A stretch of 32,686 bases of DNA from positions 1 to 32,686 of the IMG/VR virus record IMGVR_UViG_3300022902_000048; one strand, 5' to 3'. Below the pieces are notes generated by a model that saw only the letters and a program-made list of their open reading frames with translations, was not told the DNA's origin and did not search any database. Positions 28,470-32,641 of the stretch are shown piece after piece (within the stretch, counting starts at the first letter, position 1; every line of letters starts with the position of its first letter). The position numbers and the translations under genes are program-made. The stretch is from a virus.

Positions 28470-29729
28470 ATGGAAATCGATGAATTTTTAGGCAGTTCTC
28501 AGTTGAGCAGTGTATCTAATTGGCAAGAAAGAGCACTGTATAAAGAAGAAGCTTTTGGACAATATGAAAAGCTAAATCTCAGCGATGGTTGGTATGATAG
28601 CCCATTTTATGGAAAAGTTGACAGTGACGGCTATTCTATCTTCCCTAGAGAAGAGTTTTTAGTCCAAGCCGATTCTGCTAATCTAACTATGGGATTGGAG
28701 TTTGTGGAACATGCTTACACTAATTTCTATCGGACATATCTTCTAGGACTTAGCGCTAAATATGGAATTAAAAATTTTAACTCTAATTTAGTTAACATCG
28801 AACCGCAAAAAGGCTTTGAATCAGTTCACGCTTTATATCATAAGCACCAACAAGATCTTTATTCGCTTTTTTTAGCCTATGTGTCCTCTAACTACGAAAT
28901 AAGCAATAAAATCTGCACTCTTAACGCTTTTTTAAATTATTATTTCATCTTCCTACGAACTCTTATCGCTGACCTACCTATCACAAAGACAGCCTTTATA
29001 AAGAGTAATATATGTCCTATCACTATTAGCGGGCTAGCTTTTGATATAAAAAGTGACCTATCACATGACGAGGATCAACCTAAGAGTGCTATGTTCCTAC
29101 AAGATCCATTGTTTGATGATTATGTGCGACACGCAGTTCAATTTGGGTTCTCCGTGGATAAAAATGCCCCTTGGAGATTGGTTGCTAGACTCTCTTCTCC
29201 CCCTATGAAAAAATTTATTTCTCGTTTTACCCTTGAAAATGTCTTCGAGCGTTACTATCATAAATCATATAAAAGTGAGTTTGATAACTTCAAAACAACC
29301 GCAGTCCAGTTTTATAATACATTCCAGCAATCGGAACCCTTCTTCACAAAAACGGGCTTTTCAAAAAGCAGCGGAAAAATGTTTGCAAATACGATAGAAA
29401 GAAAGTACGCAGATGAAGATACCGCAAGTTCAATCAATGATATGTTTTGGCTTAACCATTATTATACTATTCGAACGCTCGAAGAAGGTTACCACCTCTC
29501 TCCTTTACAAGTCAAAAACCATGTGCAACATTTGCTTCGCACTTATAAACGCCGAGGACAGGACGCTGCCATCGAGGGATTAGAAAAAAAATTATCTAAA
29601 CTGGATAAAATGGCAATTCCTGTAGAAAGAAGAAAGTATTTTAATTATGGACCCTTGAGTGTTCAAGGGGTTATTTATCAAGATAAAAAAAATCAATTTA
29701 TGCAGCAGCAGGATAAATCGAGCTACTAA
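28470..29729 (+). CDS. Hypothetical protein, 419 aa, probably virion-associated
   Basis: RBS AGAGG 9 bases before the ATG, after a 45-base AT-rich gap. The protein is rich in Phe, Tyr, Asn and Lys and predicted mostly helical. Recognisable stretches are EFVEHAYTNFYRTYLLGLSA, a hydrophobic helix LNAFLNYYFIFLRTLIADLP at about 152-171, SPPMKKFISRFTLENVFERY, and a C-terminal region with RTYKRRGQDAAIEGLEKKL. There is no catalytic motif and no signal peptide. It closes the structural run and is followed within 8 bases by the polymerase gene. A structural role is plausible from position and length. I cannot assign a family. Confidence 0.6.
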   Translation: MEIDEFLGSSQLSSVSNWQERALYKEEAFGQYEKLNLSDGWYDSPFYGKVDSDGYSIFPREEFLVQADSANLTMGLEFVEHAYTNFYRTYLLGLSAKYGIKNFNSNLVNIEPQKGFESVHALYHKHQQDLYSLFLAYVSSNYEISNKICTLNAFLNYYFIFLRTLIADLPITKTAFIKSNICPITISGLAFDIKSDLSHDEDQPKSAMFLQDPLFDDYVRHAVQFGFSVDKNAPWRLVARLSSPPMKKFISRFTLENVFERYYHKSYKSEFDNFKTTAVQFYNTFQQSEPFFTKTGFSKSSGKMFANTIERKYADEDTASSINDMFWLNHYYTIRTLEEGYHLSPLQVKNHVQHLLRTYKRRGQDAAIEGLEKKLSKLDKMAIPVERRKYFNYGPLSVQGVIYQDKKNQFMQQQDKSSY

Positions 29730-29737
29730 GAGGATAA

Positions 29738-30922
29738 ATGCTATTTCAAGTATTAGATGATAAAGAGGAGTGCGTCACCGTATGCCTTGACGGCAAGATT
29801 GTTCGCGACCCCTCATTCGAAAACCTTACGAAAACCTGGCGCTGGCTACCTTCTCTTGGCAACGCCGAAGTGGATTGTGCTTTCCTTTACGCCAACGGTA
29901 AAGGTCTCAATGACCTCTGTCCAGAGGACTTAAAAGAGGAATGGAACACACTTTTAAAGAAGTTCGCAGCTTTTAACACTGCGTTCAAAGAAGCCAAGAT
30001 AGAAACACGAGATGTCTGTCGAGACCTTCTTATACCAGAGCGATACTTTAAAGACCTGTGCTTCTTTAAAGATAAAATTTCAGAGCATGTCTTTGAGAAC
30101 TATGAGAAGCCATCCAACTATGATTTCCTTTATCAACTAACAAAAGTATTAGAAGAAATCAAAACACAGAAGCTTAACATCGTTCCTTACGGACTCGAAG
30201 ACAGAATGTCTGCTTACAAGACACGAGCATTCGCACGCAAGCTAAAGTTCATTCAGCCTTATATTAACTACGATGTCTTTGGAACGAAGACAGGAAGGCT
30301 TACAACCAAGAGAAATAGTTTTCCTATTCTTACTCTTGACAAAGACCATCGACAAGTTATTCACCCCAATAACGATTACTTTATCGAACTAGACTTTAAC
30401 GCAGCCGAGATAAGGACTTTTTTAGCCCTTGCAGACATCCCACAACCAGAAGAAGACATTCATACCTGGATAAATGAGAACGTCTTTAAGGGGCAAAAGA
30501 CTAGGGATGAGACGAAAAAGGCTGTTTTTGCTTGGTTGTACAACCCAAAAGCATCCAACAAGAAATTGGAATCTCTCTTTAAAAGAGACGAGATTATAGC
30601 CAAACATTACGATGGCACTCATGTAACAACGCCATTCGGTCGAAAGATCGAAGCAGATGCAGACAAAGCATTAAACTATATTATTCAATCTACCTCTTCT
30701 GATGTCTTCTTACGTCAGATGATAGCAGTTCACGAGAGGCTTAAAGAAAAAAATACAAATATTGCTTTTTGTATTCACGATTCTCTTGTTTTAGATTATA
30801 ATAGGCAAGACGGAAAACTCTTAGATGAGTTGATTAACGTATTTGAAGAGACTAGCCTTGGAGACTTTCAGGTAAATGTCGCCACGGGAAAGAGCTTCGG
30901 CAAGATGCGTAAGGTTTTATAG
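29738..30922 (+). CDS. Family A DNA polymerase, polymerase domain only (394 aa)
   Basis: RBS AAGAGGA. The C-terminal half carries all PolA polymerase signatures in order: TGRL at 185-188; motif A DFNAAEIR at 219-226 with catalytic Asp219; motif B with Arg256, Lys260, Phe264 and Tyr268 at exact 4-residue spacing (E. coli R754/K758/F762/Y766); TPFGRK at 298-303; NYIIQSTSSD at 313-322; motif C HDS at 347-349 with catalytic Asp348. Motif C is usually HDE, so Ser replaces the Glu. Phe264 predicts low acceptance of dideoxynucleotides. There is no 3'-5' exonuclease domain. The first 170 residues, with little recognisable similarity, may form a reduced thumb. T4 itself uses family B, but Rhodothermus phage RM378, a far-T4 phage, is reported to have a split PolA. 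A separate exonuclease gene is therefore expected nearby. Confidence 0.9.
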   Translation: MLFQVLDDKEECVTVCLDGKIVRDPSFENLTKTWRWLPSLGNAEVDCAFLYANGKGLNDLCPEDLKEEWNTLLKKFAAFNTAFKEAKIETRDVCRDLLIPERYFKDLCFFKDKISEHVFENYEKPSNYDFLYQLTKVLEEIKTQKLNIVPYGLEDRMSAYKTRAFARKLKFIQPYINYDVFGTKTGRLTTKRNSFPILTLDKDHRQVIHPNNDYFIELDFNAAEIRTFLALADIPQPEEDIHTWINENVFKGQKTRDETKKAVFAWLYNPKASNKKLESLFKRDEIIAKHYDGTHVTTPFGRKIEADADKALNYIIQSTSSDVFLRQMIAVHERLKEKNTNIAFCIHDSLVLDYNRQDGKLLDELINVFEETSLGDFQVNVATGKSFGKMRKVL

Positions 30923-30928
30923 GTATAA

Positions 30929-31765
30929 ATGGAAACTATCATTGGATTAGGCAACGCTGGTTGCAACATAACGAAATTTTTCTCTCAATATCCTCAATAT
31001 GAGTGCTTTTATATTGACTCAGAGGCGAGGGAAGAAGAGAACTCCCTAAAGATACCCAAGAGGACGTCTCACGAGAAGTATGAAAGCTCCTTTCCTGTAA
31101 GAAAAGCAGAAGAGTTCTTTAAGAAAGTTAAAAAGCCGTGCCTTTTGGTAGTAGGAGGATCAGGGACCATTTCAGGGTGCTCCTTAAGAATCCTAGAACT
31201 ACTAAAAAAGAAGAAACCACACGTCCTTTATATTAAGCCAGACCGAGCTGCTTTGTCTGCTGAGAGAAAATTGCAAGACAATGCTGTGTACGGTATCCTA
31301 CAGGAGTATGCACGCTCGGGTTTAATAGAGCGCATGTTCATTGTAGACAATATCAAACTTGAAGAAGTCCTGGGTGATATTCCTATTATAAATTATTATA
31401 ATAATCTGAACCGCCTTCTCGTATCTACAATGCATATGACTAACATATATACTAACACCAAAGCCATAGAAAGTAGTTTCTTTGGTCTCCACGAGACCAG
31501 CCGAATATCCACTTTTGGTATGATGAAGCTCGACTCGACACAGGAAAATCTTTTCTTTGACTTGGAAAACCCAAGAGACAAGACAATTTTCTATGCGATT
31601 AATAAAGAAAGTTTAGAAAACGACGGAAGCCTTTTTCGAAAGATTAAGCAACAAGTAAAACACTTTGCAGATGAAAACCTGAATGTTTCTTATAAGATCT
31701 TCTCTACAACCTACGACGACGATTACGTTTACTCTATGAACTATTCTTCTTTCATCCAAAAATAA
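30929..31765 (+). CDS. Tubulin/FtsZ-superfamily-like protein (278 aa)
   Basis: The start lies 6 bases after the polymerase stop, with a weak ribosome site. Residues 1-13 (IIGLGNAGCNI after MET) fit the T1 phosphate loop of FtsZ (GVGGGGxN). Strand plus YIDSEA at 28-33 fits the 'NTDAQ' segment. LLVVGGSGTISGCSLRILEL at 72-91 fits the T4 tubulin signature (GGGTGTG) and following helix. VLYIKPDRAALSAERKLQDN at 99-118 and RMFIVDNIKLEEV at 135-147 fit the FtsZ 'TxPFxxEG...N' and 'iviPNdrLl' blocks. The C-terminus (VSYKIFSTTYDDDYVYSMNY) resembles the tubulin second domain. The T7-loop catalytic aspartates are not obvious. FtsZ and tubulins are about 400 aa, so this is short. Function (filament former, nucleotide binder, or inhibitor of host division) is inference. 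Confidence 0.6.
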   Translation: METIIGLGNAGCNITKFFSQYPQYECFYIDSEAREEENSLKIPKRTSHEKYESSFPVRKAEEFFKKVKKPCLLVVGGSGTISGCSLRILELLKKKKPHVLYIKPDRAALSAERKLQDNAVYGILQEYARSGLIERMFIVDNIKLEEVLGDIPIINYYNNLNRLLVSTMHMTNIYTNTKAIESSFFGLHETSRISTFGMMKLDSTQENLFFDLENPRDKTIFYAINKESLENDGSLFRKIKQQVKHFADENLNVSYKIFSTTYDDDYVYSMNYSSFIQK

Positions 31766-31778
31766 TCCTTTTTTTTGC

Positions 31779-31806
31779 TTGAATACAGAACAAACATGTT
31801 TATAAT
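31779..31806 (+). promoter_or_regulatory. Sigma70-type promoter of the gp32-like gene
   Basis: TTGAAT (31779-31784), a 16-base spacer, then TATAAT (31801-31806). The -10 box is a perfect consensus. It lies in the 144-base gap before the single-stranded DNA binding protein gene and would allow early transcription by host polymerase. Confidence 0.7.
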
Positions 31807-31909: not shown

Positions 31910-32641
31910 ATGACACTTGATATGAAAAAAATGAAAGCAAAGTATACTGCTTTACAACAGCGCGGTCGCGGCGGCGGCAAGGGCATGTGGTTTCGACCGC
32001 AGGATGGCGAACAGGTTATTCGTATTGTCCCTACCTCTGACGGTGATCCGTTTAAGGAGTTTTGGCTTCACTATGGCGTCGGAAAGAACCCTGCTTTCCT
32101 TAGTCTTAAGCGAAACTTTGGACAGGACGACCCTCTTGATGACTTTGTTCGCGCCCTTTATAAGGAAGGCGATGAAGACAGCATTAAGATGGCAAAGAAC
32201 CTTTCGGCTAAACAGCGATTCTTTTCGCCTGTTCTTGTCAGAGGTGAAGAAGAAAAAGGTGTCCGCATCTGGGGATACGGGAAGCAAGTTTATGAGCAGC
32301 TTCTCAACCTTGTTCTGAATCCTGAGTATGGAGACATTACTGATGTTGAGGCAGGAACAGACCTTACACTTCAGTATGGTAAGCCCGCAGGAGCCCAGTT
32401 CCCTCAAACGAACTTGATTCCTCGTCGCAAGTCTTCTACACTAGGAAAGACGTCGGACTCCACGGCTGCGATGTTGGATTCTATTCCAGACATCGAAGGT
32501 TCGTTTGACAAAAAATCCTTCGAACAAGTTCAAACCATCTTGGATGAGTTTATGGACTTGGAAGGCGATAATGATTCCGAAGGAACCAATCGTTATGGTT
32601 CTAACGCTATCGACAATGCTCTAGCAGACTTGGAAAGCTAG
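31910..32641 (+). CDS. Single-stranded DNA binding protein, gp32-like
   Basis: 243 residues (T4 gp32 has 301). RBS AAGGAG 8 bases before the ATG. The N-terminus is basic with a Gly/Arg patch (QQRGRGGGKGMWFRPQDGEQ). It is followed by VIRIVPTSDGDPFKEFWLHY, matching gp32's VIRFLPSKNDE..PFAILVNH, and by FFSPVLVRGEEEKGVRIWGY and GKQVYEQLLNLV, matching [20 protein letters not shown] and GKKIWDKINAMI. The C-terminus is acidic (DLEGDNDSEG, ALADLES), as needed for recruiting replication partners. The zinc-binding Cys/His set of T4 gp32 is absent: no Cys occurs in the corresponding segment (LSLKRNFGQDDPLDDFVRAL). It coats ssDNA in replication and recombination. It has its own promoter and leader. Confidence 0.88.
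   Translation: MTLDMKKMKAKYTALQQRGRGGGKGMWFRPQDGEQVIRIVPTSDGDPFKEFWLHYGVGKNPAFLSLKRNFGQDDPLDDFVRALYKEGDEDSIKMAKNLSAKQRFFSPVLVRGEEEKGVRIWGYGKQVYEQLLNLVLNPEYGDITDVEAGTDLTLQYGKPAGAQFPQTNLIPRRKSSTLGKTSDSTAAMLDSIPDIEGSFDKKSFEQVQTILDEFMDLEGDNDSEGTNRYGSNAIDNALADLES

Follow-up and report, generated by a model that had tools for sequence, protein, structure and literature searches.

The window analysed in the present study, a stretch of 32,686 nucleotides from the virus record IMGVR_UViG_3300022902_000048, carries near its end a group of replication genes, and all of its features described herein lie on the plus strand. The gene designated Z (30929..31765) starts with ATG and encodes a protein of 278 aa, which an AlphaFold model and Foldseek matches to FtsZ place in the FtsZ/tubulin fold. 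It is preceded, at a distance of 6 bases, by polA (29738..30922), encoding a PolA-family DNA polymerase of 394 aa (Pfam DNA_pol_A, 2.9e-15) in which no exonuclease domain was detected, and is followed after 144 bases by the gene for a gp32-like single-strand DNA-binding protein (31910..32641; Pfam gp32, 6.6e-12; PHROG 1192). A first-pass annotation of the window had given exactly this reading frame and had placed it between PolA and gp32, and both neighbours are indeed recognised by Pfam. Upstream of polA lies a conserved gene of 419 aa with an unassigned product (28470..29729), which is present in most loci whose contig reaches that far, and a tentative promoter-like element, TTGAAT-16-TATAAT (31779..31806), recognised by consensus match alone, is located between Z and gp32. 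Clear AGGAG-type ribosome-binding sites are observed ahead of most ORFs in the window, and the site of Z itself is weak, consistent with coupling to polA. Because sites of this type are little used in Bacteroidota, this phage may not infect Flavobacteriales, the hosts that have been suggested for Far-T4 phages. No sequence match above threshold was obtained for Z in Pfam, PHROG, NCBIfam or PDB, and the PDB sequence search returned nothing relevant.

Several computational results support the assignment of Z to the FtsZ/tubulin fold. First, an AlphaFold2 model based on an alignment of 49 Z relatives (A1; 23-83% identity to the window protein) reached a mean pLDDT of 95 and a pTM of 0.92, and its elements follow the order of tubulin (S1-H1-S2 ... 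H5-S6-H6-H7-S7, then a C-terminal sheet domain). When this model was compared with PDB using Foldseek, the best 50 matches were all FtsZ or TubZ, with a best E of 7.3e-14 for FtsZ, a TM by query length of up to 0.75 and identities mostly of 11-14%; the TubZ structures 4ei7 and 2xka were matched with E values of 4-6e-12, and the best matches in a viral library were annotated as FtsZ, cell-division protein or tubulin. The tubulin/FtsZ fold called in the first-pass annotation, for which structure prediction and a fold search had been suggested as the check, is therefore upheld, as no fold lacking the tubulin topology was obtained. Second, the two-domain architecture joined by the core helix H7 is present in the models and the fold search. 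A second model, built from 12 subfamily sequences with the window's own group left out (A4), has a mean pLDDT of 59, is confident in the N-terminal part only and is poor in the C-terminal half; its best fold matches are again FtsZ and TubZ (E 6e-6), and at this confidence it is taken as supporting evidence only. Third, hhalign aligned T1, T4, T6 and H7 of the Z profile in register with nine FtsZ sequences, and a 102-member Z profile scored 26.7 against FtsZ, compared with 21.9 for the highest of 60 column-scrambled or reversed controls. Sub-threshold matches to the ftsZ family of NCBIfam (TIGR00065) were observed in 9 of the 49 members (best E 0.0018; next family, 2 of 49), and to Pfam Tubulin (PF00091) in 4 of the 49 (best E 0.003), suggesting that the sequence profiles agree, weakly, with the same fold. 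The failure to reach the cut-offs of PF00091 and TIGR00065 lowers the case that Z is an FtsZ, not the case for the fold in so remote a family. In addition, PF00091 gave no match in six large phage contigs, showing that this model alone does not detect the Z family. The idea that Z is an ordinary Rossmann or NAD-type protein mistaken for a tubulin, which draws on a GxGxxG at the N-terminus and a few sub-threshold Pfam matches to NAD-binding families, is extremely improbable, as the FtsZ/TubZ matches span the whole chain, including H7 and the C-terminal domain, the second model finds the same families, and Rossmann folds are far weaker matches in the viral library. Taken as structure predictions, these results show computationally that Z belongs to the FtsZ/tubulin fold.

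The nucleotide pocket of this fold is largely retained, as the T1 glycines (G6, G8 and G11) and the guanine-contact asparagines (N141 and N161) are kept in the alignment of 102 members. The T1-like loop GLGNAGCN (residues 6-13; 30944..30967), aligned by hhalign to FtsZ T1, has G6 in 101, G8 in 102 and G11 in 90 of the 102 sequences. The T4-like loop GGSGTISG (residues 76-83; 31154..31177), aligned to the GGGTGTG of FtsZ, has G77 in 95, G79 in 85 and S82 in 93, with S78 also kept, and the T5-like KPD (residues 103-105; 31235..31243) has P104 in 86 and D105 in 94. N141 (31349..31351), the equivalent of the T6 guanine-contact asparagine of FtsZ and tubulin, is aligned to the T6 asparagine of FtsZ and present in 100 of the 102, and the H7 helix of the model (residues 156-175; 31394..31453) carries N161 (100/102), H169 (99/102) and N172 (99/102). 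The positions of N141 in T6 and N161 in H7 are those which we take to hold the guanine base in tubulin and FtsZ structures. Among the 49 members of A1, G8, G77, L86, Q125, R129 and S130 are invariant, and G6, S82, D105, N141 and N161 are nearly so. Thus, the motifs GLGNAGCN, GGSGTISG, KPD and FIVDN..LE (the last at residues 137-145) not only occur where the first-pass annotation had read them but also rank with the best-conserved positions in the 49- and 102-member alignments, which argues against chance resemblance. The alteration of the signature glycines, also noticed at that stage, extends through the family: the tubulin signature G-G-G-T-G-[TS]-G is replaced by GGSGTISG in the window, by a degenerate G-S-G-x-x-S-G in most members and by GSSYSSN in one subfamily.

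The catalytic elements, in turn, are lost throughout. No T7 motif (N/Q-x-D-x-x-D/E) was found between residues 165 and 200 in any of the 102 members, which generalises the missing T7 aspartates of the first-pass annotation to the family. The segment that replaces the T7 loop and helix H8 of FtsZ (residues 176-192; 31454..31504) has neither catalytic acids nor a helix, H8 is absent from the DSSP assignment of the Z model, and the spacing from N172 to R192 is 20 in 100 of the 102. The T3 GAG motif is also absent, with a conserved E-x-Y-E/D at residues 49-52 in that region. The C-terminal domain (residues 193-273; 31505..31747) consists of strands and helices in the model and bears no C-terminal tail, only 5-18 residues following the last strand in family members, and the C-terminal linker and conserved peptide of FtsZ proper are not present. 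In Staphylococcus aureus FtsZ, the hydrolysis site is formed by N208, D210 and D213 of T7 together with G72 of T3, and the T7 mutants N208L, D210N and D213N fail to assemble (PMC8936486); together with the absence of T7, this suggests that canonical filaments are not to be expected of Z. However, the catalytically dead PhuZ D190A still polymerises with GTP into stable filaments (PMC4244570), such that the loss of catalysis does not by itself preclude filaments. Judging from these sequence features, GTP hydrolysis by Z is very unlikely, FtsZ-type dynamic filaments are unlikely and a static polymer is conceivable, and we infer that Z might bind nucleotide without hydrolysing it. Such binding may not be universal in the family, as several residues of the pocket, including the equivalents of N141 and N161, are missing from the most divergent Z (L050 6898-7737; 23% identity). 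In that locus, an extra ORF of 91 aa lies between polA and Z. In another (L010 7182-7838), Z is shortened to 218 aa, possibly through a frameshift or a real truncation. Outside the pocket, the strongest conservation is observed at the end of H5 (Q125, Y127, R129 and S130), the end of H7 (H169 and N172) and the start of S7 (R192-I193). The H5 residues form a family-specific motif, QEYARS (residues 125-130; 31301..31318), in which Q125, R129 and S130 are each found in 102 of the 102 members, and the model topology would place the conserved residues outside the pocket on the domain face opposite the nucleotide.

The position of Z, too, is conserved. In the first four scans, 124 loci read upstream gene-polA-Z-gp32, and the remainder showed this arrangement either truncated at a contig end or with split or duplicate calls; the 19 loci without Z all end before its position. 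In a further set, found mostly through polA, Z follows polA in 77 of 78 loci, the one exception ending at polA. These counts are of loci rather than independent phages, some windows lying on the same contigs, and among loci long enough to judge there is no counter-example to the order polA-Z-gp32, which answers the survey of PolA and gp32 adjacency that had been proposed for this gene. The polA and Z genes often overlap, by 1, 4 or 13 bases, and in approximately 38 loci (e.g. L130, L202 and L064) 0.24-2.5 kb is inserted between them. In 11 contigs of 147-204 kb, Z occurs once per contig. Pairwise identity among Z proteins falls to 17%. Of the pairs compared across 118 distinct loci, Z and PolA show the strongest covariation of distances (r 0.78, partial 0.46), with an r of 0.69 for Z and gp32. 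The mean identity of Z in these loci is 40%, little below the 46% of PolA. This pattern is consistent with vertical inheritance within the replication module.

The phages carrying Z are, as judged by capsid identity, Far-T4. The major capsid protein (Gp23-type) is closest to that of Flavobacterium phage immuto, with 46% identity over the pieces that align. Microcystis phage Mel-JY01 and Rhodothermus phage RM378 (41%, likewise over the pieces that align), the latter being the classical Far-T4 reference (PMC4360716), are also near the top. The phage had been described as T4-type in the first-pass annotation; it is a Far-T4 phage and not a close T4 relative. In the cultured phages immuto and Mel-JY01 and the metagenomic LR756508, the polA-gp32 region holds unrelated genes and no Z, suggesting that Z is restricted to a sub-clade and is not a universal replisome part; in immuto, two unrelated small genes occupy the slot, and a split Z in gp002/gp003 was unsupported (E 0.065 and 1.9, filters off). 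Similar small proteins were observed near polA/gp32 in Z-less cousins (L292 1346-1801, L293 3867-4256 and L294 5374-5763), of which the first two have an LVHRKKESNT-YTIN-LN stretch in common. As in the Z phages, polA in immuto is followed by gp32, a RecA-like recombinase, a 5'-3' exonuclease and a helicase, all annotated; in two Z loci, L002 and L004, this downstream module was recognised through order and sequence resemblance only. A gene resembling FKBP-type peptidyl-prolyl isomerases lies between gp32 and the recombinase in both (L002 12324-12755 and L004 13952-14383), and four 46-nt imperfect repeats with GAGGCAC...GTGCCTC-like hairpins occur in the gaps after gp32 (L004 11702-13929), perhaps as terminators or RNA processing sites. 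In most relatives, PolA measures approximately 390-405 aa. Six large contigs gave no family B polymerase, and eleven (G001-G011) gave no DNA_pol_A_exo1 domain, leaving a proofreading exonuclease undetected.

The family belongs to a widespread virus group that is mostly marine. An IMG/VR protein search with Z gave 4 close relatives, searches with polA and gp32 gave many more loci with 107 ORFs matching the Z profile (several of these loci overlapping on one contig), and the A1 profile detected at least 597 relatives in IMG/VR. Three family members used as queries against cultured phages gave no match, nor did one used against plasmids. A genome-contig search covering fairly close relatives gave no genuine Z in cellular DNA. 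The sole match, in the chromosome of a WOR-3 MAG (CP070664.1; L300), is an upstream gene-polA-Z-gp32 phage fragment whose locus includes 200 N and which is flanked by genes of bacterial appearance; it is likely a mis-scaffolded phage piece, and a cellular origin of Z was rejected on this ground. The literature on phage or viral tubulin and FtsZ that was covered, with subscription papers and preprints largely outside it, deals mainly with PhuZ and contains no report of the Z family, and the main texts of the Far-T4 phage or host papers covered mention neither FtsZ nor tubulin. Z thus appears to be a new, catalytically degenerate family within the FtsZ/tubulin superfamily, for which no earlier description was found.

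Herein, we propose that Z is a phage-specific, catalytically degenerate FtsZ/tubulin member that assists the PolA-type replisome of a large Far-T4 clade as a core accessory protein, a reading to which we give about an even chance. The fold, the family-wide loss of T7, the retention of glycines and asparagines in the pocket and the fixed place between polA and gp32 are established by computation, and the synteny suggests a replisome role with PolA and gp32. First, Z would be made together with the polymerase. Second, its T1/T4/T6/H7 pocket would take up GTP or GDP without hydrolysis, and the protein would exist as a monomer or static oligomer stabilised by the nucleotide; without hydrolysis, treadmilling FtsZ-type filaments would not form. 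Third, Q125, R129 and S130, with Y127, H169, N172 and R192, would mediate contact with PolA and/or gp32, and Z would work at replication forks as a scaffold or as a factor for processivity or regulation, although gene neighbourhood is not proof of physical contact between Z and PolA or gp32. The narrower version, in which a new FtsZ/tubulin branch has been converted from a GTP-consuming filament into a non-hydrolysing core replisome part, sensing nucleotide in partnership with gp32 and a PolA devoid of exonuclease and fixed throughout a major marine lineage, is put forward tentatively, at somewhat worse than even odds. A replication role is favoured over two other functions, antagonism of host FtsZ and a DNA-positioning filament, by the fixed place, the single copy and vertical descent.

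Unrelated phage proteins directed against FtsZ are known, e.g. T7 gp0.4, lambda Kil and SPO1 gp56, and with FtsZ as the closest fold, and the nucleotide face kept while the T7 face is lost, Z might co-assemble with or cap host filaments via its nucleotide face and block division, poisoning the host FtsZ filament during infection for want of T7. However, genes acting against the host usually lie in variable early regions, whereas Z keeps one copy per contig and a fixed place in the replication operon at identities down to 17%, and its identity to FtsZ of only 11-14% shows that the gene was not acquired from a host recently; we regard host antagonism as unlikely. It is likewise improbable that Z forms a PhuZ/TubZ-like filament for positioning or segregating phage DNA, either static and non-hydrolysing or with relocated catalytic residues. 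TubZ and phage tubulins are among its fold matches, dead PhuZ still forms stable filaments, and the conserved E49, Y51 and acidic E/D52 after S2, which might lie near the gamma-phosphate at the place of FtsZ T3/H2, could constitute a replacement catalytic site. Nevertheless, T7 is absent in all 102 members, Z has no C-terminal tail whereas the PhuZ filament requires an extended C-terminus (PMC4244570), and no TubRC-type adjacent gene or repeat array was recognised near Z, the neighbours being polA and gp32 and the only repeats in the window short two-copy families unlike a centromere. Still less probable is a pseudo-enzyme scaffold that keeps the FtsZ fold as architecture and no longer binds nucleotide: the loss of T3 and T7, the GSSYSSN loop and the L050 protein speak for it, but the near-universal retention of N141, N161, G6 and G8 speaks against it.

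The well-studied phage tubulins, PhuZ of jumbo phages and TubZ of plasmids and phage c-st, form dynamic filaments and possess catalytic T7 loops. Z resembles bacterial FtsZ (PF00091, TIGR00065) in whole-chain fold and in the order of T1, T4, T6 and H7 but differs in its low identity, in the lack of the T7 motif, H8, the T3 GAG and the C-terminal tail, and in being a phage gene inside a replication operon. Like Z, the PhuZ protein of jumbo phages that form a nucleus is a phage-encoded member of the tubulin superfamily. It has a catalytic D190 and a C-terminal extension and forms dynamic filaments of three strands (PMC4244570), whereas Z lacks both a catalytic T7 and a C-terminal extension; the profile similarity of Z to phiKZ PhuZ is limited to the T1 stretch. 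TubZ of Bacillus plasmids and phage c-st shares the fold and the location on extrachromosomal elements, whereas Z has no C-terminal extension, no catalytic T7 and no partition cassette recognised beside it. The best viral fold match, A0A6J5RW92 (BFVD; TMq 0.80, E 6e-14) from an uncultured Caudovirales, is, by fold, length and annotation, a longer protein (452 aa; 16% identity) labelled FtsZ Cell division GTPase. Z represents a third and very abundant phage branch, in which the fold and most of the pocket are kept, the catalytic loop is lost throughout and the gene is locked to that of the polymerase. It opens the questions of what use a non-hydrolysing FtsZ fold has and of how a minimal PolA replisome is organised in which neither an exonuclease domain nor a family B polymerase was detected. 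To our knowledge, no tubulin-fold protein has a job at the replication fork, and if the replisome reading is true, Z would be the first to work there.
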